The position numbers were made by a program, and so were the translations under genes. Shown here one piece after another: positions 1 through 10,446 of a stretch of 10,446 nucleotides of DNA (the first letter of the stretch is position 1; every line of letters begins with the position of its first letter). A model generated the notes under the pieces. It had not been told where the DNA came from. It saw only the letters and a program-made list of their open reading frames with translations, and ran no database searches. The stretch lies in assembly GCA_030628225.1 (NCBI GenBank), contig DAOVRJ010000067.1, positions 1 to 10,446 on the forward strand, written 5' to 3'. Source of the stretch: Candidatus Zixiibacteriota bacterium (lineage in GTDB: Bacteria; SM23-81).

Positions 1-2426
1 ACATGATCGACGGTATACTTGAACCGCACAGCCAGCCGATCAGAGATCCGGTCGGATACCGAAAACCAGTAGCGATAGGAATTGCCGTTCAAAACCATGA
101 ACTCGCTGTCCTCAAAATTCCAGAAAAAACCGTCGTAGATGCCGAAGAAGGTGCGCAGCTTCAGCCGATCGCTAAAGTTATGGGTTAACGTCATTCCCAG
201 CGCCTCAGTGGGCGAGACCAGATTGCCGGTGCTGGGGTGGTTCCCATCCGGCTCCACATTGTCTACCAGTCGCGGACGCGGCGGCCAGAGGGTGTATCCC
301 GTGGTATAGAGGGCCTCCAGTTGATCGTAACCAGAGATCCGCAGCCTCAGACGCAACCGAGTGGTAATGTTATTGAAGCTCCCAGTGGTCAACGAGTTAT
401 CATCGTCCCGGTACTGGTATTTCTGACGAAGCTGCAGCCTTATCGGATAGATGGGCTGATAGTCGATCTTGAGCACCATACGCATATGCTGGGCATTATC
501 GGCTTTCCTTTTCCAAATATCGAATTCCATCTGGGGCGTCAACTCCTGGGTGAGGCGATAGCGGGAGGATATGTAAAAACCCTCCTCTGCCTGGGGCTGT
601 ACGGAATTGTCGTAAACCTGGGCATACAGCGGATTGGTCATGTAATATTCGTCCTCGAAGATGGTCCGTTTGAACCGCTGATAGTTGGAGAAGGCCCGGC
701 AGTAGGGGTTATCATAGGCCACATCGTAATTCCGGTAGATCCCCAGGATGTTCAAATTGTTGTACTGGGTATAGGCGCTGAGGATCACCGCCTGGGGATA
801 GCCGTCCAGATCCACCTGGCGGTCGAAGTCCCGGCCTGTGTCCAAAATGCCATACTCGCCCTGCAGAGAGACGTTTTTATAGATGGTCTGAAAGTCCACC
901 CCGTACACCCGGCGGTAATTGTCCCACCATTCCTCGGTCCCGGTCCTACCGTAGGGGCTTTCAAAAGAGCTGAGGTACTCGCTGTCAGCGGTGGTGGTCT
1001 TGTCGCGGCGAGATGTAATGGTGGATAATTTGGGGCTGAAAGGACGATCGTAGATACTCTCGTAGAAGCTGAAGCCCACGTGGGTACCCAGCCATGGGCT
1101 GTACCTCAAATTGCCACCCCAGGTTTTCTCGTAGAGGACGTCCCTCATAAGCATGCAGCCATTTTCCTCCAGCACCTTGTTCTCCACCTTGGGAGTCATA
1201 ATAATGTAGCAGTTGGCCGTGGAGTCGGGGTTGAGAATGGCATCCTTGTCATCCCAGGAAAAGAAGAACAGACCCCTCAGTTTCCAGTAGGAGGCCTGCA
1301 GAGCGATCCCGTCCAGGGCAAATTCCTCTGTGCGGGAGACGTCCCCGATGACCCCGTCCAGCCGCTTATCCCAGGAGAAACCGGACTTACGGGGCTTGAA
1401 GAAATCGGTGTTCTCCATCACCAACCCCTGCCCGATGGTTATCATGTAGTTGCCCAAGTACAGCCGGTCCAGGTGGATGGGACCCAGCTGTATGTTCTCG
1501 ACGCCCACAAATCGCTTCACCGTGGGAAAGGTGCGGGTTTTGAACAACTTTTTGTGGCCCAGCTTGACGTCAGTCATAGGTCGTTCTTCCCCCAGGCCGC
1601 GGTAGGCCAGAAACCCGGCTCTGATCTTCTGGCCCCATCTCAGCCGCAGCTTATGCATGGCGGCCGGGGAGGCATTGTCCATGCGCAGCAGGTCCCACCA
1701 GCGCTCATCTCCCTCGTTGAGCAAATCGTGGAAATCTCCAAAAAGGGGCGTGTTGTATAAACGAAACTGATAATTGCCGTGGAATTCAAGGCCCTTGTCC
1801 GGCTCGGAATAACGCAGGAAATTCCGGGCGTTACGGTAGCCCCAGTCGGAGATGCCGGGCACTCTGCCCAGGTCCCTCCTGCTGTTCAATGTTCCAATCC
1901 TGTTGCGCTGTTTGACGATGGCCAGGGCGTCAACTGGAGAGACGTTTTGCAAATTCATCAAATCGGTGATGGTGGCCGCATTGACGTTGATGGGATCCTT
2001 GGCCTGGTCGATCCAGATATCGACGAGCCCCTCGTTTGTACCCTCATTCGCGGCCCACTGCTCGATGCGGAAGTAGATGGAGTTCAGCCGGGCTATTTCT
2101 TCATCTGTTTCCGTCACCGGCAGAACTTTGACCAGGGGCTTGATGCGATCGAACTTGCCCTGATCGAATCCGGGGAGTTTGCGGATCTCATAGATGCTCT
2201 TGAAATAGGAGGTATACTCCCGATATTCGTAAAGAGTCTGCGCGTCTTGTTCATCGATGGGCAGAGATCGTATCTCATCCAGGGTAGCCCGGTTGATATC
2301 CACCTGCTGAACAGGAGCCTCCTCGGCCCGGATCACCCTCACTCCCAGCGGAAGGAGCAACAAACAGACGACGATCACCAAAAGGGGAGGTCTCAGAGCG
2401 GTTATTCCTCGGGCGAAAGGTTCCAT
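1..2426 (-). CDS. Helix-hairpin-helix (ComEA-like) outer-membrane beta-barrel protein, 3' end beyond window
   Basis: The minus strand is open without a stop from the ATG at 2426 to the window edge, giving 808 codons with the C-terminus missing. Residues 1-34 form a signal peptide with a hydrophobic run (PPLLVIVVCLLLLPLG) ending near VIRA/EE. Two ComEA-like helix-hairpin-helix regions follow: about 41-100 (starts VDINRATLDEIRSLP) and about 145-205 (starts PINVNAATITDLMNL). From about 212 onward the protein is rich in alternating, aromatic-ended beta strands (LEFHGNYQFRLYN, LRLRWGQKIRAGFLAY, WGGNLRYSPWLGTHVGFSFY), as in a large outer-membrane barrel. The start overlaps the stop of the PorV-like gene as TGATG, implying translational coupling. 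ComEA binds incoming DNA in the periplasm, but here the hairpins read PID and NVS instead of the usual GIG type, so DNA binding is uncertain. Similar HhH-plus-barrel proteins occur in FCB-group bacteria, to my knowledge without a settled function. The open frame is seen directly, the HhH call is strong and the barrel call is inferred. Confidence 0.85.
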   Translation of the reverse strand, partial: MEPFARGITALRPPLLVIVVCLLLLPLGVRVIRAEEAPVQQVDINRATLDEIRSLPIDEQDAQTLYEYREYTSYFKSIYEIRKLPGFDQGKFDRIKPLVKVLPVTETDEEIARLNSIYFRIEQWAANEGTNEGLVDIWIDQAKDPINVNAATITDLMNLQNVSPVDALAIVKQRNRIGTLNSRRDLGRVPGISDWGYRNARNFLRYSEPDKGLEFHGNYQFRLYNTPLFGDFHDLLNEGDERWWDLLRMDNASPAAMHKLRLRWGQKIRAGFLAYRGLGEERPMTDVKLGHKKLFKTRTFPTVKRFVGVENIQLGPIHLDRLYLGNYMITIGQGLVMENTDFFKPRKSGFSWDKRLDGVIGDVSRTEEFALDGIALQASYWKLRGLFFFSWDDKDAILNPDSTANCYIIMTPKVENKVLEENGCMLMRDVLYEKTWGGNLRYSPWLGTHVGFSFYESIYDRPFSPKLSTITSRRDKTTTADSEYLSSFESPYGRTGTEEWWDNYRRVYGVDFQTIYKNVSLQGEYGILDTGRDFDRQVDLDGYPQAVILSAYTQYNNLNILGIYRNYDVAYDNPYCRAFSNYQRFKRTIFEDEYYMTNPLYAQVYDNSVQPQAEEGFYISSRYRLTQELTPQMEFDIWKRKADNAQHMRMVLKIDYQPIYPIRLQLRQKYQYRDDDNSLTTGSFNNITTRLRLRLRISGYDQLEALYTTGYTLWPPRPRLVDNVEPDGNHPSTGNLVSPTEALGMTLTHNFSDRLKLRTFFGIYDGFFWNFEDSEFMVLNGNSYRYWFSVSDRISDRLAVRFKYTVDH

Positions 2427-3319
2427 CAGTTACCCCCGAAATGATAGGAGATGGACATCTGATGGGTCAACGGCAACACGGTGTGGTTGATCAGAGCGTA
2501 ATCAAAATGAATGCCCTGATACTTGAAGCCCACCCCTCCCATCAACCTGTCGGGTTTGGTCTGCACCCCAAAACGAAGTGTCATAAAGGGCACGATCCGA
2601 GCCTCGATCCCACCGTTAACCCGGGTATCCTCTCCAAATCTCTTGGCCAGGTCCAGAGCGGTGACCACCCCCGGATAGGGCTGGTAGGCAATCCCAAAGG
2701 TCATATATTGGGGCAAATCCTCCCGATACCCCTCGCCCATGCGCGGACGGTTGATATTGCGTATGGCAGCGCCCATGCGCGTTCTCTTCCGCAGGACAGC
2801 CATGATGCCCAGGTCAACTCCCATGGTCTGGGCTGAACCCAGAACCTGTCCCTGTGTAGAGGTTCCAAACTCCAGGTCATAGAGGTTGAGCGCATACCCC
2901 AGAGCCAGGGAAGAGTGCACGTCCTCCATCACCGAAAATCCATGAGAAAAGCTGAAAGTTTTCTCGCTCTCCAGATCCTCGCCCTGGTAGGTCACCCCCA
3001 GCTTCTGGAAGCCGAAACCCAACACACCATATCTGGGCAACGGCACGGTGACGCTGGCTGCTATATGCTCCAGAAAATCCAGCCCGTAAGGCCGATGATA
3101 GGAGGTGAAAAGCTGGTAGCCGGCCAGCTGGCTCAGCCCAGCGGGATTGTAGAAAAGGGCGCAGCCGTCATCGGCCAGAGCGGTAAAGGCCCCTCCCATG
3201 GCCCGAGCCCTGGGGCTGGGACTGTAATCGTCAAATACGGCTCCCGCCGGCCCGCCGATCAGCAGGGTGATCAGCAAAACTAAAAGCGGCGCCCAACCCG
3301 CCGTTCCCATTTTTCGCAA
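2426..3319 (-). CDS. PorV/PorQ-like (UPF0164-type) outer-membrane beta-barrel protein
   Basis: The product is a 297-residue outer-membrane protein of the PorV/PorQ/UPF0164 type. The diagnostic segment lies just after the signal peptide: RARAMGGAFTALADD at about 37-51, then FYNPAGL at 56-62. The remainder is glycine- and aromatic-rich beta strands ending MSISYHFGGN, with the near-terminal aromatic residue typical of barrels. It is shorter than PorV of Porphyromonas (about 390 residues). I chose a TTG start at 3319 because a GGAGGAG ribosome-binding site lies 6 nt upstream and because it gives a clean signal peptide (MRKMGTAGWAPLLVLLITLLIGGPAGA, cleavage before VFDD). The frame is open upstream to another TTG at 3370, and an ATG at 3325 abuts the ribosome-binding site. 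PorV in Bacteroidetes shuttles type IX cargo for surface attachment, but many relatives in this broad family have no assigned role. The stop codon overlaps the start of the HhH-barrel gene, so the two proteins are probably made together. Confidence 0.82.
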   Translation of the reverse strand: MRKMGTAGWAPLLVLLITLLIGGPAGAVFDDYSPSPRARAMGGAFTALADDGCALFYNPAGLSQLAGYQLFTSYHRPYGLDFLEHIAASVTVPLPRYGVLGFGFQKLGVTYQGEDLESEKTFSFSHGFSVMEDVHSSLALGYALNLYDLEFGTSTQGQVLGSAQTMGVDLGIMAVLRKRTRMGAAIRNINRPRMGEGYREDLPQYMTFGIAYQPYPGVVTALDLAKRFGEDTRVNGGIEARIVPFMTLRFGVQTKPDRLMGGVGFKYQGIHFDYALINHTVLPLTHQMSISYHFGGN

Positions 3320-3398
3320 GGTCATCTCCTCCATGAGAGAATTGATGAGAAATATCTGGCTCGTCGTCAAAATATGTGAATGCTGTCAGTGAAAGACC

Positions 3399-3541
3399 GA
3401 TCCTGGATCCTAGATCCTGGTTAAAGGCCGAGATTCGAGACTCGTAAAGGCTGAAGTCAAAATATTTTCCCATTTTGCATTTTTCACTTTTCATTTTTCA
3501 CTTTGCATTTCTTTTACCAGGATCCAGGATCTAGGATCCAG
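3399..3541. repeat. Palindromic intergenic element with inverted heptamer arms
   Basis: The left arm (3399-3420) is about three copies of a 7-mer, GATCCTG GATCCTA GATCCTG. The right arm (3517-3541) carries the inverted heptamers CCAGGAT CCAGGAT CTAGGAT. A perfect 18-bp inverted repeat pairs CTGGATCCTAGATCCTGG at 3403-3420 with its reverse complement at 3524-3541. In another register, 3399-3425 pairs with 3512-3538 at 24 of 27 positions. The interior holds a near-palindrome around CGAGATTCGAGACTCG (3429-3444) and the AT-rich tandem repeat. No transposase is present, so this looks like a small non-autonomous or REP/MITE-type intergenic repeat. Copy number elsewhere in the genome is unknown. Confidence 0.75.
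3478..3516. repeat. AT-rich 14-bp tandem repeat inside the palindromic element
   Basis: Two adjacent 14-mers, CATTTTTCACTTTT (3478-3491) and CATTTTTCACTTTG (3492-3505), are followed by a partial third copy (CATTTCTTTTA, 3506-3516) and preceded by a related CATTTTG at 3471-3477. Read on the minus strand the units are AAAAGTGAAAAATG. They form the central part of the palindromic element, between its two heptamer arms. Confidence 0.75.
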
Positions 3542-3601
3542 AATGAACTCTTTTGAAGACCCAAATCCCTTTTTATTTACATCTTGATCTTACCTTCCGG
3601 T

Positions 3602-3820
3602 TCATCTAGCCTCCGGGGCCTCGGGCACCACCAGCCAGGCGATGATATAGGCCAGCAGGCCTCCTCCCCCGGCCAGGGTGAAGAAAATCCACAACAGCCG
3701 GATCAAGACGGGATCCACTTCAAAATACTCACCAATTCCGCTACAGACCCCGGCTAATTTCCGATCGGCCCTGGAGCGATACAGCTTTTTGGGCCCTGTG
3801 GGGGCCGTCTTTGCGCTCAT
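3602..3820 (-). CDS. PspC-domain small inner-membrane protein
   Basis: A 72-residue protein made almost entirely of a PspC domain (residues 11-66). The signature is KKLYRSRADRKLAGVCSGIG at 11-30, followed by EYFEVDPVLIRLLWIF and a hydrophobic membrane segment (about 38-65, including AYIIAWLVVP). PspC proteins belong to the phage-shock/envelope-stress response. In Escherichia coli, PspC senses secretin and outer-membrane protein mislocalisation together with PspB. Stand-alone PspC proteins of this size are common in other phyla and their partners are usually unknown. I chose the ATG at 3820 because GAGG lies 5 nt upstream; a GTG at 3826 overlaps that site. The gene begins 29 nt after the stop of the 918-residue secreted protein, so it is probably the last gene of that operon. 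This could link heavy export of beta-domain proteins with envelope protection, which is inference. No psp partner genes are in the window. Confidence 0.9.
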   Translation of the reverse strand: MSAKTAPTGPKKLYRSRADRKLAGVCSGIGEYFEVDPVLIRLLWIFFTLAGGGGLLAYIIAWLVVPEAPEAR

Positions 3821-3849
3821 GTCCACCTCGAATTGTGTTAAATAACCGG

Positions 3850-6606
3850 TCAGTTCAGGGGCGTTCCCACAACGATGGGCGCCTGATCGGTGGTGGTAAT
3901 CCCCTTATCGCGGTCCGTGGCCTCCAAATGACAGATGTACACGCCCATGGGAACCACTCCTCTCAACTCATCCCGTCCGTTCCACACCACCTGACCGGGA
4001 CCGGCATATTGCTCTTCATCCACCAGCGTGCGCACCACCCGCCCCTCGATATTATACAGGCGCAGGACCACATCGCTGTTGGTGGGCACGTTGAACTCGA
4101 TGAGGAACCCATCGGTATCGGTGTAAGATCCTCGATTGGGCACAAAAACCCGCGGTTCAATGGACAGAATAGCTTTATCCAACCCCTCAACGGTCACCCG
4201 GGGTGAATTTTGGATCTCCTTGAGCGACTGCCCGGACACGGCTGTTTTAACCCGAAAAACGGATATCTCGCCGATGGTCGGAGCGTTCAGGTCCAAAATG
4301 GCCATGACCCCCTGATCGGTCTCGGTCACCGCTGCCTGATGGATGATAATGGTCCGCTCGCCGGATATCTCCACGGTGGTGCTACTGGGAAAACCCGCTC
4401 CCGATAGCTGGATACTGCCCACCTGCGGAAGGTTCCATGTCCAGCTGAGGGGGATCTCCACGGAAAGATCGGTGAGAACGTACGTGCTCTCGCTCCAGAT
4501 GGTAACCGTCTCGGTGAAACCCTCGTCCGTGGCATTCACCGTGGCCGGGGAAATAGAGGCGTATCCGATCCCCTCGGCCTGAGGCTGACCCTCGAAGATG
4601 TCCTCCTGATACCCGGTGAGAATCTGGTAGGTGCTGGAATAAACGGAGCCGACCCCGATGGCAGTGACGGTGTCGCCCTCGGTGAACTCGCTGACGTCGA
4701 TCCCGGTGGTCTCCCAAATCCGTATGCAGATCTGTCCACTGCCGTCATCCAGGTTAACGTTGTAGCCCCCGCCGATAAGATAGGGATCCTCCAACATAAC
4801 GCCGGTCACCTGAATCCAGGTGCCGTCCCACTCCGCGTCATTGGCTCCCCCGGTGGACAGAAGTATCGGATCGGGCAGCGCCTGATTTGTGTCCAGCACG
4901 GTGACGGTGATATCCTTGATCTCAGTGGTGGCACTGATATATCCGGAGCCCAGATAGTCCTCCACCTCGCCGGTGACCTCCACCAGGTTGCCCCTGGCCA
5001 GCGTGCTGTGCAGATCATAATCGAAGAGGTTGATGCCTCGTCCCGACTCGTCCTGTACATAGGCCCGGGTCTTGGTATTGTCCAGAGGCCCCGCCCCAAT
5101 GGTCACCACTGCCCTGACGGTGACGGTCTTGCCCTCGTACTGGCTCGGGTCCGCCTGGATATCAGCTATGGGGGTGATCTCCGGCCCCACGGCCCCAACC
5201 ACTACCTGGGGCGGGCTGTCGATCTCCGCCGGCGCCCCACCCTCCACGGATGTCTTGACCAGGAAAGTGGAGGTGGTCATCGATCCCGGCGAGGTGAGGC
5301 CGGCGATGATCACCTGTCCTGGAGTGCGGTCGTTCACAGCAGCGCTGGTGACGGTGATTGTATCACCGACAACCCCCACCGTCGCCCCGGAAAATCCCTC
5401 CTCAGCCAGGCTCACATCCGCGGCGCTCTGGGACCAGCTCCATCCCTGAGGCACCACGACGATCACGGTGACCAATGGCGTCTGCAGCGCCGGCTCGCCC
5501 GTGACGGTGAGAGTCTCCACCACCGCCTGGGACAGATCGACGCTGTCCGGGGAGATGATGGCCGTTCCCGACCCATCCCCGGGCAATCCGCCGCGAACGA
5601 CGTAAGAGTAAGTAGAAGTTGGGGCATTCTGCGGATCGAAGGACTCCAGGTCCTCATTGTCTGTGGCCTGGATGTAGTATTCCACCTCTATCCCCTCAGC
5701 CTGGGCACCGATCAGGCCCGTGTACACATCATCTGCGGCCGTTTCGTCGGGAGCCACGCCGTCGTCCGTCATGGAGGTGAAATCCCAGCTTGTCCCTCCA
5801 TCGGCAGAGTAAAACAGAGTCACCGAGCTGACGGTGCCATCGTCGGTCACCTGTGATGTGACCGTCACCGACTCGGTGAACAGGGGGCTGACCGGATCAT
5901 GAGCCGTGTTTCTTATGGTCGGTGACCCGGTAATCTCCAAGATGATGTCGTCGGCATCCCGGGGGATGAGCTCGTATTCGCTGTAGCTGTAATCGGCCAA
6001 TCCGATGATGACCGCAATGTTCTCTCCCATCACGGGGTCATAGTGAAAGAGATCATCGTCGATCTGACACTCTCCGGATCCATCGTCCACATACCACTGG
6101 CCATGGCTATCGAGCCCCTGGGTAACCACAACATCACGCACCCTCACCAGCATGCCCTCGTAGGCCTCCGAGTGGGCGTTGCAGCCCCCGGCCAGATCGG
6201 CGGTGGTGATATCCAGGATCGAAGGCATAGGGTTGCCGGAGGAGTGGAGCTCAAAATTGCTGACGCTCTTCATCTCCGTCAACCCGTAGTACTCATCCGG
6301 GGTGGCGGTTATGGTCAGACTGTCTCCCGGAGAGGGTTTGATCGTACTGTCAAAGATGAAAACTCCACCCCACAGCCCATTGTCGAAATCCTCTAACCAG
6401 AAATTCTGATATGTACCGGTCATGACAGCGGTGACGATGCCCGAGATGGTCACCTGCTGGCCGTCCAGGGGTGAGGGATAACAGTCGTCCCCGCTTCCCT
6501 GGTTCGTTTCGTTATATTGCACATCGTAAATGGTGGTCGCCATACCCACCCATGGCAGTCCCAGAATCATGACCGCCACGAAAATGGCCCTCCAGCCACA
6601 CTTCAT
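3850..6606 (-). CDS. Large secreted multidomain protein: OB-fold modules, Ig-like domains, FlgD-like C-terminus
   Basis: A 918-residue exported protein. Residues 1-23 are a signal peptide ending VGMA before TTIYDVQ. Residues 24-221 form a double OB-type module with DEYYGLTE at 104-111, VDDGSGECQIDD around 173-184 and three cysteines (42, 142, 180). This resembles the OB domain preceding the catalytic part of secreted YhcR/ExeM-type nucleases. About 228-338 is an Ig/Fn3-like domain (VTLFYSADGGTSW). About 346-472 and 680-808 are two copies of one beta-domain. About 474-671 is a divergent second double-OB region (DDGSGQICIRIW). About 811-918 is a FlgD-like Ig domain (RLYNIEGRVVRTL) ending APIVVGTPLN, a sorting-tail type common in FCB lineages. 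No catalytic domain is visible, so a binding or adhesive role is likely. The ATG has GAGGAGG 6 nt upstream. The gene lies 31 nt after the related 538-residue gene and 29 nt before the PspC gene. Ligand unknown. Confidence 0.88.
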   Translation of the reverse strand: MKCGWRAIFVAVMILGLPWVGMATTIYDVQYNETNQGSGDDCYPSPLDGQQVTISGIVTAVMTGTYQNFWLEDFDNGLWGGVFIFDSTIKPSPGDSLTITATPDEYYGLTEMKSVSNFELHSSGNPMPSILDITTADLAGGCNAHSEAYEGMLVRVRDVVVTQGLDSHGQWYVDDGSGECQIDDDLFHYDPVMGENIAVIIGLADYSYSEYELIPRDADDIILEITGSPTIRNTAHDPVSPLFTESVTVTSQVTDDGTVSSVTLFYSADGGTSWDFTSMTDDGVAPDETAADDVYTGLIGAQAEGIEVEYYIQATDNEDLESFDPQNAPTSTYSYVVRGGLPGDGSGTAIISPDSVDLSQAVVETLTVTGEPALQTPLVTVIVVVPQGWSWSQSAADVSLAEEGFSGATVGVVGDTITVTSAAVNDRTPGQVIIAGLTSPGSMTTSTFLVKTSVEGGAPAEIDSPPQVVVGAVGPEITPIADIQADPSQYEGKTVTVRAVVTIGAGPLDNTKTRAYVQDESGRGINLFDYDLHSTLARGNLVEVTGEVEDYLGSGYISATTEIKDITVTVLDTNQALPDPILLSTGGANDAEWDGTWIQVTGVMLEDPYLIGGGYNVNLDDGSGQICIRIWETTGIDVSEFTEGDTVTAIGVGSVYSSTYQILTGYQEDIFEGQPQAEGIGYASISPATVNATDEGFTETVTIWSESTYVLTDLSVEIPLSWTWNLPQVGSIQLSGAGFPSSTTVEISGERTIIIHQAAVTETDQGVMAILDLNAPTIGEISVFRVKTAVSGQSLKEIQNSPRVTVEGLDKAILSIEPRVFVPNRGSYTDTDGFLIEFNVPTNSDVVLRLYNIEGRVVRTLVDEEQYAGPGQVVWNGRDELRGVVPMGVYICHLEATDRDKGITTTDQAPIVVGTPLN

Positions 6607-6637: not shown

Positions 6638-8254
6638 CTATTTGAGATAAATCATCTTCTTGACGGCCGAGAACTCCCCCGCCTGCAGCCGGCAGAAATA
6701 GATGCCGCTGGCCAGGGAGCCGCCCGCATCGCCAGTGCCATCCCAGCGCACGGAAAACTCGCCTGGCTGATGAATTCCATCGGCCAGACTGGCCACTCTC
6801 TGACCCAGCAGATTGTAGACCTGCAGACGGACATAAGTCCGTTCCGGCAGGGTGTAGCGGATCTCCGTCTCCGGATTGAAAGGATTGGGGTAGTTCTGAT
6901 AGAGGGCGTAACACCCGGGAAGCGTTGCGGCATCGCCGCCGCTTTCTACAGAGGTGAGCTCCGTCTGGATGTCGCTCGCCTCTCTGGGTAATATCTCGTA
7001 CTCGCTGTAGCTATAATGCACCACCCCGATGATGGCGGCGAAGGAATCTCCCAGGGCGGGCTCGTGGTGATAGATGTAATCATCGACCTCACACGCACCA
7101 GAGCCATCGTCTATAAACCACTGGCCATGCTCATCGACCTCCTGGGTGACAACAACGCCCAGCACCCGCACCAGTATGCCCTCATAAGCCTCGGACGAGG
7201 CACTGCAGCCTCCGGCCAGATCGGCTGTGGAAATATCCAGGGGGGCGGGCAGCGGATTGCCGCTGGAGTGGATGGTGAAGTCGGTGACGTTTTTTATTTC
7301 TGTTAAGCCATAGTATTCGTCAGGGGTTGCAGTAATAGTTACCAAATCGCCCCGCGTCGGCCCAACGGAGAGATCATATACGAAAACCCCACTCCACAGC
7401 CCCTTGTCCGCGGTCTGCATCCAGAAATTGGGATAGTCGCCGGGCAGAACGGCGGTGACCACCCCCTCGATGGTCACCGACTGGTCATCATAGGGCGAGG
7501 GATAGCAATCGTTTCCCGTGCCCTGATTGGTCTCGTTGTACTGCACATCGTAGATGGTCTGCGCCGTGTCGGGAGGCGCTCCCCCGACCACGTCATCGGC
7601 ATCTCTGGGGTTGATCTCATATTCGCCGTAGCCGTATTGAACCACGCCGACAATGGTCTCCAGGGTGTCTCCCAGGGCCGGGGAGTGAGCATAGAGGTAG
7701 TCATCGATCTGGCACTGGCCGGAACCATCGTCCACATACCACTCGCCATAGGTGTTTGCCGCCTGGGTGACCACCGCGTTCGACACGCGCACCAAAACGC
7801 CCTCATAAGCCTCCGCCCCGACATTGCAACCCCCGGCCAGGTCGCCGGTGGTGATGTCCACAACAGGGGGCAGAGTGTTGCCACTGGAGATGATCTGGAA
7901 GCTGCTGATGTCCTTCAGCTCCGTCAAACCATAGTATTCGTCGACCGCTGCCGTGATGGAGACCTGATCGCCCCGGGAGGGCTCGACGGTGACATCATAG
8001 ACATAAATACCCTTCCACAGCCCACCGTCCGCCTCCTCCAGCCAGAAATTGGGATAATCACCTGCCCGGACGGCGGTGACGATACCCTCCACGGTCACCG
8101 TGCTATCAGCAAGGAGAGAGGGATAACAATCATCCCCAGTGCCCTGGTTGGTATCGTTGTGCTGCACATCATAAATAGTGGTCGCCAGCCCGGCAGCGGG
8201 AGCCAGGGCAAAGAAGGCGACCATCACAAGGATAAAATAACGGCGACACGCCAT
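6638..8254 (-). CDS. Secreted protein with two tandem OB-type modules and type IX-like C-terminal sorting domain
   Basis: A 538-residue exported protein. Residues 1-24 are a signal peptide (MACRRYFILVMVAFFALAPAAGLA). Two 198-residue double-OB modules follow at 25-222 and 232-429. Each has TIYDVQ near its start, EYYGLTE, SEAYEG or AEAYEG, and DDGSGxC, plus three cysteines at identical spacing (43/143/181 and 250/350/388). Residues about 449-538 are a classic type IX-like sorting domain: NYPNPFNPETEIRY at 454-467, then VYNLLGQRVASL, LASGIYFCRLQ and a terminal KKMIYLK. The modules resemble the OB nucleic-acid-binding region of YhcR/ExeM-type secreted nucleases, but no nuclease domain is attached. 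I chose the ATG at 8254 because GGAGG lies 9 nt upstream; the GTG at 8263 abuts that site. The gene is first in a unit with the 918-residue relative and the PspC gene, behind its own promoter. The sorting domain call is very secure. The binding target is unknown. Confidence 0.9.
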   Translation of the reverse strand: MACRRYFILVMVAFFALAPAAGLATTIYDVQHNDTNQGTGDDCYPSLLADSTVTVEGIVTAVRAGDYPNFWLEEADGGLWKGIYVYDVTVEPSRGDQVSITAAVDEYYGLTELKDISSFQIISSGNTLPPVVDITTGDLAGGCNVGAEAYEGVLVRVSNAVVTQAANTYGEWYVDDGSGQCQIDDYLYAHSPALGDTLETIVGVVQYGYGEYEINPRDADDVVGGAPPDTAQTIYDVQYNETNQGTGNDCYPSPYDDQSVTIEGVVTAVLPGDYPNFWMQTADKGLWSGVFVYDLSVGPTRGDLVTITATPDEYYGLTEIKNVTDFTIHSSGNPLPAPLDISTADLAGGCSASSEAYEGILVRVLGVVVTQEVDEHGQWFIDDGSGACEVDDYIYHHEPALGDSFAAIIGVVHYSYSEYEILPREASDIQTELTSVESGGDAATLPGCYALYQNYPNPFNPETEIRYTLPERTYVRLQVYNLLGQRVASLADGIHQPGEFSVRWDGTGDAGGSLASGIYFCRLQAGEFSAVKKMIYLK

Positions 8255-8332
8255 CGCGTACACCCTCCCTCTAAGGTGAAAAAGTGAATTCGGCCTCGTG
8301 AACAGAGACCTTCATTCCACTACAGAATTGTC

Positions 8333-8435: not shown

Positions 8436-9737
8436 CTATTTGCCCTCAGCCAACTTCCGGTTCAGCTTCTCGGCCACGGCGTCCAGCCCTTTCTTGGCGG
8501 ACTTCTTGCCCCTCATGGCCGTTTCCACTGCTTCCTCTTCCAGCTGCCGTCTGCCGGAGAACCATTGCCGGGTTTTCGGCTGGGCCACAGCGTAGTCCAT
8601 CTGGCGCATCACCGCCTCCAGGCCGGGGACCCTCTCGAACTCGGCCTTCATCTTGTCCGTCTCCAGGGCGGACCGCCGGATGGGCACGTAGCTGGTCTCC
8701 ACAGACCAGCGAGCCTGCTGTTCCACCTCCGTCAGCCACCTCACGAAGGTCCAGGCTGCCTGCTGTTGTTGTTCCGAGGTCTTGGAGAAGATGGCCAGGT
8801 TGGTCCCGGTGAGCATCACCGCCGGCTTCTTTCCCCGGGGGATGGGGGCTATACCGGGTACAAAGGTCAGCTGAGGCTCCATGTATTTCCGCGAGACGAT
8901 GTGCCCCTGGATCATGGCCGCTTTCCGGGCGACGAAATCGGTCTGGTGCTCATAGGCTCCGGGAGCAATGTAGGCCACATGATCCTTCTCCACCAGATCC
9001 ATGAGATACTGCAGAGCATCGACGCCGATGGGAGTGTTGAACAGGAACTGAGTCCCGTCGGGGCTCATTATTTGACCTCCGTTTTGGACCAGGATCAACT
9101 GGAACATGGCAAAAATGGTGGGGATGGAGAAGGAAGTGCCCCATTGCTCGGGCCTGCCGTCGCCATCGGCGTCCAGGGTCAGCTTGGCGGCCATCTCCCG
9201 GAACTCCTCCCAGGTCTGCGGAGGCCGGTCCGGATCAAGACCGGCTTTCTGAAACATCTCCTTGTTGTAGTAAAGAGCTGGAAGCCCCTTGTTGAAAGGA
9301 AAGGTCCACAGCTGGCCAGCGAAGGTGCCCCCGTCAAGAAAAACGGGAAAGATATCCGCCAGCTCCTCCTGGGAAAGCCCATTGGACCCATCCACGAATT
9401 TTTGCAGGGGCACGATGGCTCCGGCGTCGATAAAGTTGGCCGTCCAGTTCTCGTAGACCTGCGCCATGGTTGGTGGGCTGTTCGCGGCGATGGCGGCCAT
9501 GATCTTCTGGCTCAGGGCCGCGTATTGCCCCATGCTCACTCCGCTGACCTGGATCTCGGGGTGAGTGGCGTTGAAATCCGCGATCATCTTCTCCAGGCTC
9601 TCCCCCAGAGGACCTCCAAAACCGTACCAGAAGGTCACCAAGGTTTTGCCCTCCTCCCCTTCCTGCTTTTTACCGCATCCGGCCGCAGAAAAAAAGCAGG
9701 CCAGGACCAATAACAGAACCACGCTCTTTTTGACCAT
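8436..9737 (-). CDS. Carbohydrate ABC transporter solute-binding lipoprotein, UgpB-like family 1
   Basis: A 433-residue extracytoplasmic sugar-binding protein (SBP_bac_1 family) that would deliver ligand to a MalFG-type importer. The N-terminus is a lipoprotein signal: MVKKSVVLLLVLACFFSAAG, then cysteine 21, followed by a charged linker. The lipobox AAGC lacks the preferred leucine at -3 but is acceptable. The mature protein begins VTFWYGFGGPLGESLEKMI at 34-52, the usual first strand and helix of the family. This segment with its GG(P/E)LG turn is reminiscent of the glycerol-3-phosphate-binding protein UgpB. YNKEMFQKAGLDPDRPPQTWEEF is the hallmark mid-protein motif. Length is normal for the family. 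The ATG has GGGAGGG 7 nt upstream. The gene follows the permease by 60 nt and is the last gene of the operon before the OB-module promoter. The substrate cannot be fixed: a sugar, oligosaccharide or glycerol-phosphate derivative. Confidence 0.93.
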   Translation of the reverse strand: MVKKSVVLLLVLACFFSAAGCGKKQEGEEGKTLVTFWYGFGGPLGESLEKMIADFNATHPEIQVSGVSMGQYAALSQKIMAAIAANSPPTMAQVYENWTANFIDAGAIVPLQKFVDGSNGLSQEELADIFPVFLDGGTFAGQLWTFPFNKGLPALYYNKEMFQKAGLDPDRPPQTWEEFREMAAKLTLDADGDGRPEQWGTSFSIPTIFAMFQLILVQNGGQIMSPDGTQFLFNTPIGVDALQYLMDLVEKDHVAYIAPGAYEHQTDFVARKAAMIQGHIVSRKYMEPQLTFVPGIAPIPRGKKPAVMLTGTNLAIFSKTSEQQQQAAWTFVRWLTEVEQQARWSVETSYVPIRRSALETDKMKAEFERVPGLEAVMRQMDYAVAQPKTRQWFSGRRQLEEEAVETAMRGKKSAKKGLDAVAEKLNRKLAEGK

Positions 9738-9797
9738 AACATCACCCTCCCAGAAATAGGGTTCTCTGGCCCAGACGAACGGGCAACGCCGAGGATG

Positions 9798-10446
9798 TCA
9801 CTCCTTCAACCCGCTGTGGGCGAAACTGGAGATGATCTGTTTTTGGGCAATGAAGAAGATGGCCAACAGCGGCGCGATGCAGAAGGCGGCGGCGGCCATC
9901 ATCAAGGTGTACTGGGTGCCCTGCTCCGTGGAGAAATAAGCCAACCCCACCTGGATGATCCGCTTGTTGACGCTGTTGGTCACCACCAGGGGCCACATAA
10001 AACTGTTCCAGCTGCCGATAAGGGAGAACAGGGAAACGGCCACCAGCACGGATTTGGACAGGGGGATCACCACCCGCCAGAGAAACCCGAACCGGCTGCA
10101 GCCGTCGATAGTGGCGGCGGCGTAAAGGTCGTTGGGGATGGTCCGAAAGTGCTGACGCAGCCAGAAAATGCTGAAAACATGGGCAGCCCAGGGGATAATC
10201 AGGGCATAGAAGGTGTCCACCCAGCCCAGCTTGGAGAGGATCACGTAGCTGGGGACCAAATAGACCGGCATGGGCACCATCATCATGCTCAAAAACAACA
10301 GAAAGATGGTCTCGCGTCCCGGGAAGCTCATCCGGGCAAAGGCATAGGCGGCCAGGGAGGAGGAGACCAGCACGCAAAGCATCACCGTCAGGGCCACGAA
10401 GATGGTATTGAAGAAATACAGGGGAAAAGGCACAGCCTGCCAGGCT
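9798..10446 (-). CDS. Carbohydrate ABC transporter permease, MalG/UgpE type, 5' end beyond window
   Basis: This inner-membrane permease is open to the window edge, leaving 215 visible residues of an expected 270-290. The frame continues upstream of the internal GTG at 10433 as AWQAVPFPLYFFNTIFVA, the typical start of the first conserved MalG membrane segment, so the true start lies outside. Five hydrophobic segments are visible. The EAA loop that docks the ATPase reads LYAAATIDGCSRFGFLWRVV then IPL, matching the EAAxxDG...I.LP consensus except for Ala in place of the Glu. The C-terminus (FFIAQKQIISSFAHSGLKE) is standard for the family. It precedes the solute-binding protein by 60 nt. The partner MalF-type permease is presumably just upstream, outside the window. 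No ATPase gene is visible; such importers often share a distant one. Confidence 0.93.
   Translation of the reverse strand, partial: AWQAVPFPLYFFNTIFVALTVMLCVLVSSSLAAYAFARMSFPGRETIFLLFLSMMMVPMPVYLVPSYVILSKLGWVDTFYALIIPWAAHVFSIFWLRQHFRTIPNDLYAAATIDGCSRFGFLWRVVIPLSKSVLVAVSLFSLIGSWNSFMWPLVVTNSVNKRIIQVGLAYFSTEQGTQYTLMMAAAAFCIAPLLAIFFIAQKQIISSFAHSGLKE

Follow-up and report, generated by a model that had tools for sequence, protein, structure and literature searches.

What might a protein do that joins two ComEA-type HhH domains to a giant outer-membrane barrel? The gene that raises this question, here called the HhH-barrel gene, lies in a window of 10,446 nucleotides that makes up all of contig C266 in a draft genome of 2.34 Mb. 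A first-pass annotation had described its minus-strand frame as open for 808 codons to the edge, and we confirmed this reading frame (positions 3-2426, Table 1) and retrieved the rest of the gene from contig C18 of the same genome. The end of C18 (L157) carries the 34 C-terminal codons, IDARYFNQASGPDPEGSNVREDNRAFRLQIDYGW-stop, and the protein, whose terminal residues thus lie on C18, ends in RLQIDYGW-stop. At full length it has ~848 amino acids, with the last ~40 codons located outside the window contig. No exact overlap was found between C266 and C18, and alignment with a homologue from candidate division Zixibacteria bacterium SM23_81 (L029) suggests that ~6-7 residues are missing between them. 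This homologue, whose source belongs to the same family as the window genome, is the closest relative of the HhH-barrel. Because it is 81% identical over its full length in a sister genome, and because homologues of ~800-880 amino acids occur in 42 genomes, the gene is, judged by its conservation, real and under selection.

Table 1. Features of the window, with positions counted from its first nucleotide.
Feature	Position	Strand	Evidence or remarks
HhH-barrel gene	3..2426	minus	open for 808 codons up to the contig edge
Signal peptide region, ~residues 1-35	2322..2426	minus	by inspection: hydrophobic run, VIRA/EEAP
HhH domain 1, residues ~40-99	2130..2309	minus	hairpins LPID, PGF; E 3.7e-8
Helical linker, residues ~100-143	1998..2129	minus	conserved; motif EGxN/SxGLxD invariant
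HhH domain 2	1812..2003	minus	E 4.4e-12; hairpin LQNVSPVDA kept in the family
Predicted ~26-strand outer-membrane beta-barrel, residues ~214-808	3..1787	minus	last strand off-contig
PorV/PorQ-like outer-membrane barrel	2426..3370	minus	immediately upstream of the HhH-barrel gene; PorV_fam E 2.9e-17
Secreted multi-domain protein with OB-fold repeats	3850..6606	minus	ExeM/NucH-type OB E 9e-12; FlgD_ig
C-terminal sorting domain of the cargo	3850..4137	minus	ends APIVVGTPLN; tail conserved in cluster cargos across phyla
Second OB-fold secreted protein	6638..8263	minus	tandem ExeM/NucH-type OB; ordinary type IX tail

The domain order that the annotation had read from the letters, namely a signal peptide, two ComEA-type HhH domains and a giant barrel, was borne out by profile matches, by AF2 models and by the ComEA fold. 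Neither of the two outcomes that the annotation had named as refuting it, a profile search giving no HhH match for residues 41-205 or a predicted structure lacking a closed barrel, was obtained. A hydrophobic N-terminus is also present in the homologues. The Pfam model HHH_3 (PF12836) matches the protein in two stretches, with an E-value of 2.8e-20 that is above the curated cut-off, and the hairpins lie exactly where they had been placed (LPID at 55, PGF at 85, NVS at 161 and PGI at 190). In an AF2 model of the tandem HhH region (179 amino acids, mean pLDDT 80.9), both domains are well predicted. The model of HhH domain 1 superposes on Geobacillus ComEA (8dss) with a Z of 11.8 and an rmsd of 1.4 Å over 65 aligned residues, and the next fold matches are Tex, GspK and PsbU.

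The remainder of the protein is likely a closed outer-membrane barrel, to judge from an AF2 model of moderate confidence. For the complete Zixibacteria homologue (841 amino acids; mean pLDDT 66.5, pTM 0.66), the model places ~26 strands over residues 208-840. Hydrophobic alternation inside the predicted strands amounts to 2.17, compared with 1.30 +/- 0.19 in shuffles (z 4.5), and the C-terminus is aromatic (DYGW). By sequence, no match was found between the barrel and solved structures. By structure (Foldseek/VIA-align), FimD aligns to the model over 371 residues (Z 15.6, rmsd 5.0) and MtrB (6r2q_B) matches it at E 4e-9 with a low TM-score; we rejected these matches as a guide to function, as they share barrel architecture only and name no function. 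The strand positions are net positive in 51/51 homologues (median +12, range 3-20, counted without a control barrel), which suits an anionic substrate, and loop charge is for the most part negative (median -23 over the 51 homologues).

All four hairpins of the HhH region, LPID, PGF, NVS and PGI, depart from the canonical GhG. Where the annotation had called them degenerate, we found instead an altered sequence conserved across phyla. The form [NG]V[ST]xxDA (LQNVSPVDA in the window) is largely conserved over 51 homologous loci, and the hairpins are therefore best read, on this pattern, as an altered sequence under selection and not a decaying one. The HhH region is also acidic, with a pI of 5.0 in the window and a median of 4.8 over the 51 homologues (44/51 below 6); HhH2 taken alone is often mildly basic. 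By contrast, the host's stand-alone ComEA keeps canonical GIG hairpins (LPGIGPQ and VRGIGEK) and its HhH pI is 10.8. The stand-alone ComEA proteins of two genomes of the same phylum have pI values of 9.3 and 9.8, and ComEA-like domains in more distant genomes range from 5.4 to 10.5. The whole-protein ComEA model TIGR01259 gives the HhH-barrel 51.6 bits, below its cut-off of 152.35. Three roles had been suggested for the tandem: a periplasmic plug, a peptidoglycan or protein contact, or a weak DNA clamp. Because the region is acidic and has lost GhG while the host's separate ComEA is canonical and basic, a plug or a protein-contact (docking) role is favoured by these sequence features, and the weak DNA clamp fits least.

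The surroundings of the gene extend the picture beyond the first-pass annotation by a five-gene cluster, its occurrence in SprA-positive genomes, a dedicated cargo tail and a short paralogue with one HhH domain. The cluster runs from a cargo with its own sorting tail through a PorV-like barrel, the HhH-barrel in third place and a FadL-like barrel to a UshA-like phosphatase. The host carries all five genes, split over C266 and C18, where two of them follow the C-terminus of the HhH-barrel. Profiles derived from the neighbours and run across all HhH-barrel loci placed the PorV-like gene next to the HhH-barrel gene in 45/49 loci, a cargo with the distinct C-terminal sorting domain in 40 of the 46 loci having enough sequence, the FadL-like barrel in 36/46 and the UshA-like phosphatase in 25/40; these are counts of loci and not of independent events, as some loci represent one genome reached through near relatives in two collections.

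Against PorV_fam (NF033709, curated cut-off 90), the PorV-like protein of the window scores 63.2 bits and that of L027 scores 76.7; the start codon of the window gene is uncertain, with MTLRKMG likely. The secreted protein encoded at 3850-6606 is presumed to be the type IX cargo of the cluster. It reaches 24.7 bits against FlgD_ig (cut-off 27), and the tails of the cluster cargos share a signature near [AK]P[IVL]V[VI][GA]TxL. The protein encoded at 6638-8263 scores 29.4 bits against Por_Secre_tail, above the cut-off, and ends in KKMIYLK, unlike the cluster cargo tail. Cluster cargos are acidic overall, with pI values mostly of 4-5. A tRNA_anti-codon OB domain scores above cut-off in the L125 cargo, lamin-tail (LTD) domains occur in other cargos, and DUF5689 is above cut-off in those of the relatives L136 (E 1.7e-12) and L060 (E 2.1e-11); a Pfam profile search did not detect DUF5689 in the window's own cargo. 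In the UshA-like gene of the host (L157 3134-4819), the catalytic histidines are replaced (TNDIGG, GHIE), the L029 protein reads TNDIAG, and most other loci have intact catalytic motifs.

Other genes at these loci vary. L060 encodes a NucT-like phospholipase-D-family nuclease within the cluster (4661-5251), and L140 and L144 show a similar-sized gap at this position. In the KSB1-type loci L031 and L032, the HhH-barrel gene is followed, by eye, by succinyl-CoA synthetase alpha, KsgA and RecO-like genes that stand in place of the FadL-like and UshA-like genes. The window itself also contains sugar-type ABC transporter genes (solute-binding protein and permease; 8436-10446), and similar ones lie upstream in L027. 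A role in anti-phage defence was considered and dropped, as the five cluster proteins gave no PADLOC matches.

Among 386 sampled genomes around the host, the long HhH-barrel (called at E below 1e-30) is present in 42, from 26 families. SprA (called at E <= 1e-12) occurs in 42/42 of these genomes versus 86/344 others (Fisher 4e-23, a statistic that ignores kinship). Since shared ancestry is not corrected for in this count and may explain the association, the result shows that the HhH-barrel is confined to SprA-bearing lineages and not that it depends on SprA. In the first 60 genomes, a long or short HhH-barrel was found in 13/16 SprA-positive and 0/44 SprA-negative genomes; ComEC (56/60) and secretin (55/60) are too widespread there for co-occurrence to be informative. 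HHH_3 frames of 714-800 amino acids in many genomes were rejected as barrels, as on sequence inspection they look like Tex. One of 15 contig matches, L039, is titled Puniceispirillum and is probably a mis-binned contig. The host's SprA translocon, which scores 632 bits over the frame, is encoded on its contig C258. The same strand carries a small canonical ComEA-like gene (L046 3924-4319) ~55 bp downstream of sprA, an adjacency also seen in G001, G002 and G009.

The short HhH-barrel has ~660 amino acids and one HhH domain and occurs in the host and others (L045, L048, L049 and L057), in each of these loci after a PorV-like gene. The host's copy, at L045 1270-3270 (contig C70), has 666 amino acids, one basic HhH domain and the PorV-like gene before it, and the HhH domains of short paralogues within the host's phylum are basic. 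In L057, a PorV-like barrel with a C-terminal ComEA-type HhH fusion (3233-4327) directly precedes the short HhH-barrel gene.

What joint function could these genes serve? The best explanation, which we offer tentatively, is that they encode an outer-membrane complex, assembled with the type IX secretion system, for the capture and import of nucleic-acid material. The HhH-barrel would be the channel component of this complex. The type IX system would export the OB-fold cargo, whose dedicated C-terminal tail would let its own PorV-like barrel retain it on the cell surface. There, the cargo would capture nucleic-acid material, which may then pass through the HhH-barrel along its cationic strand faces. 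On the periplasmic side, the acidic HhH tandem would act as a plug or docking module and not as a DNA clamp, and in most lineages the UshA-like phosphatase would process periplasmic nucleotides. In line with this proposal, the five-gene set is maintained in many families, SprA accompanies the HhH-barrel in 42/42 genomes, cargo-shuttle pairs from adjacent genes are known in type IX secretion (PMC12618676), and the neighbours point, by domain assignment, to nucleic acid: ExeM/NucH and tRNA_anti-codon OB domains, DUF5689, lamin-tail domains, a 5'-nucleotidase-like enzyme and the NucT-like nuclease. Against it stand the acidity of both cargo and HhH region, neither of which is an obvious DNA binder, the phosphatase, which looks inactive in the host lineage, the failure to detect DUF5689 in the window cargo and the moderate confidence of the barrel model.

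A more specific form of the import proposal does away with pilus and secretin: an OB-fold capture protein, exported by type IX secretion and seated on a PorV-like anchor, would work beside a ~26-strand barrel, and the tandem HhH would have given up DNA binding and would gate this barrel from the periplasm. We rate this version as rather unlikely. If real, such a pilus-free importer would be found in a large number of uncultured, Bacteroidota-related phyla.

The main rival reading does without import. In Flavobacterium johnsoniae, cognate cargo-shuttle pairs of the type IX system are encoded side by side (PMC12618676), and it is therefore a reasonable inference, by analogy, that the cargo and the PorV-like barrel form a dedicated pair. 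On the rival reading, the PorV-like shuttle and the HhH-barrel would anchor the OB-fold cargo as a dedicated display or assembly platform, with the HhH tandem docked to components of the periplasmic type IX machinery or of the cell wall. The dedicated tail and PorV-like gene, the presence of SprA in every homologue genome and the acidic, non-canonical HhH region all accord with such a platform, as does the use of cognate neighbouring barrels by type B CTD proteins (PMC12618676, PMC9143113). It accounts neither for the UshA-like enzyme and the FadL-like barrel in the cluster nor for the size of the HhH-barrel, and we consider it somewhat unlikely.

Alternatively, the complex could import another nutrient, such as phosphate esters, nucleotide sugars or lipids, on which the OB-folds and the phosphatase would act. 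OB-folds do not always bind nucleic acids, UshA-family enzymes include UDP-sugar hydrolases, and a FadL-like barrel lies downstream; the ExeM/NucH-type OB, DUF5689, LTD and NucT neighbours nevertheless lean towards nucleic acid, and this reading is distinctly unlikely. It is very improbable that the tandem is a classic ComEA-like clamp, tethered to the outer membrane, that pulls DNA through the barrel for transformation: the HHH_3/ComEA profile matches, the ComEA fold, the mildly basic HhH2 and the basic HhH domains of the short paralogues in the host's phylum would fit, but every one of the four hairpins deviates from GhG, 44/51 homologues have an acidic HhH region, and a canonical, basic ComEA is encoded separately in the host.

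It is still a question how Bacteroidota-like bacteria bring DNA through their outer membrane, and a screen in Riemerella anatipestifer has turned up surface, barrel and HhH proteins that await explanation. The cluster is a compact and widely conserved candidate analogue of the Riemerella set, linked to type IX secretion and recorded from 26 families, mostly of uncultured bacteria. Our literature search, which covered papers other than those in subscription journals and preprints, found only the Riemerella screen for the five-gene set. Even if import were excluded, there would remain a cargo-specific surface module of type IX secretion that has three outer-membrane barrels, and of such a module we found no description in those papers.

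Transformation of Riemerella requires the DUF5689 protein RA0C_RS04920, and it equally requires an outer-membrane barrel and a periplasmic HhH protein (PMC8459023). The combination of a DUF5689 surface protein, a barrel and a periplasmic HhH (RA0C_RS04920, RS04915 and RS02645; PMC8459023) resembles the cluster described here, most closely in the relatives whose cargo carries DUF5689. In Riemerella, the HhH protein stands apart from the barrel, which bears a carboxypeptidase-regulatory domain, whereas here HhH is fused to the barrel, in which the carboxypeptidase-regulatory domain (pfam13620) found no Pfam match. As in the PorV and PorP-SprF cargo-shuttle pairs, the cargo adjoins a PorV-family barrel and SprA is encoded in the same genomes; unlike those pairs, the cluster adds the HhH-barrel, the FadL-like barrel and the UshA-like enzyme, its cargo has its own tail type, and its PorV-like protein falls below the curated cut-off. 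The barrel is similar in strand number and size to MtrB and the FimD/PapC ushers but is only ~7-10% identical to them, and accessory domains are not common to both. GspK, a pseudopilin, and PsbU have the same HhH fold (Z 6.4-7.6), and neither is attached to a barrel. Their HhH domains serve protein contacts. With ComEA, finally, the protein shares the HhH fold and the HHH_3 profile match, and it differs in that two domains are fused to a giant barrel, are acidic and have GhG replaced.
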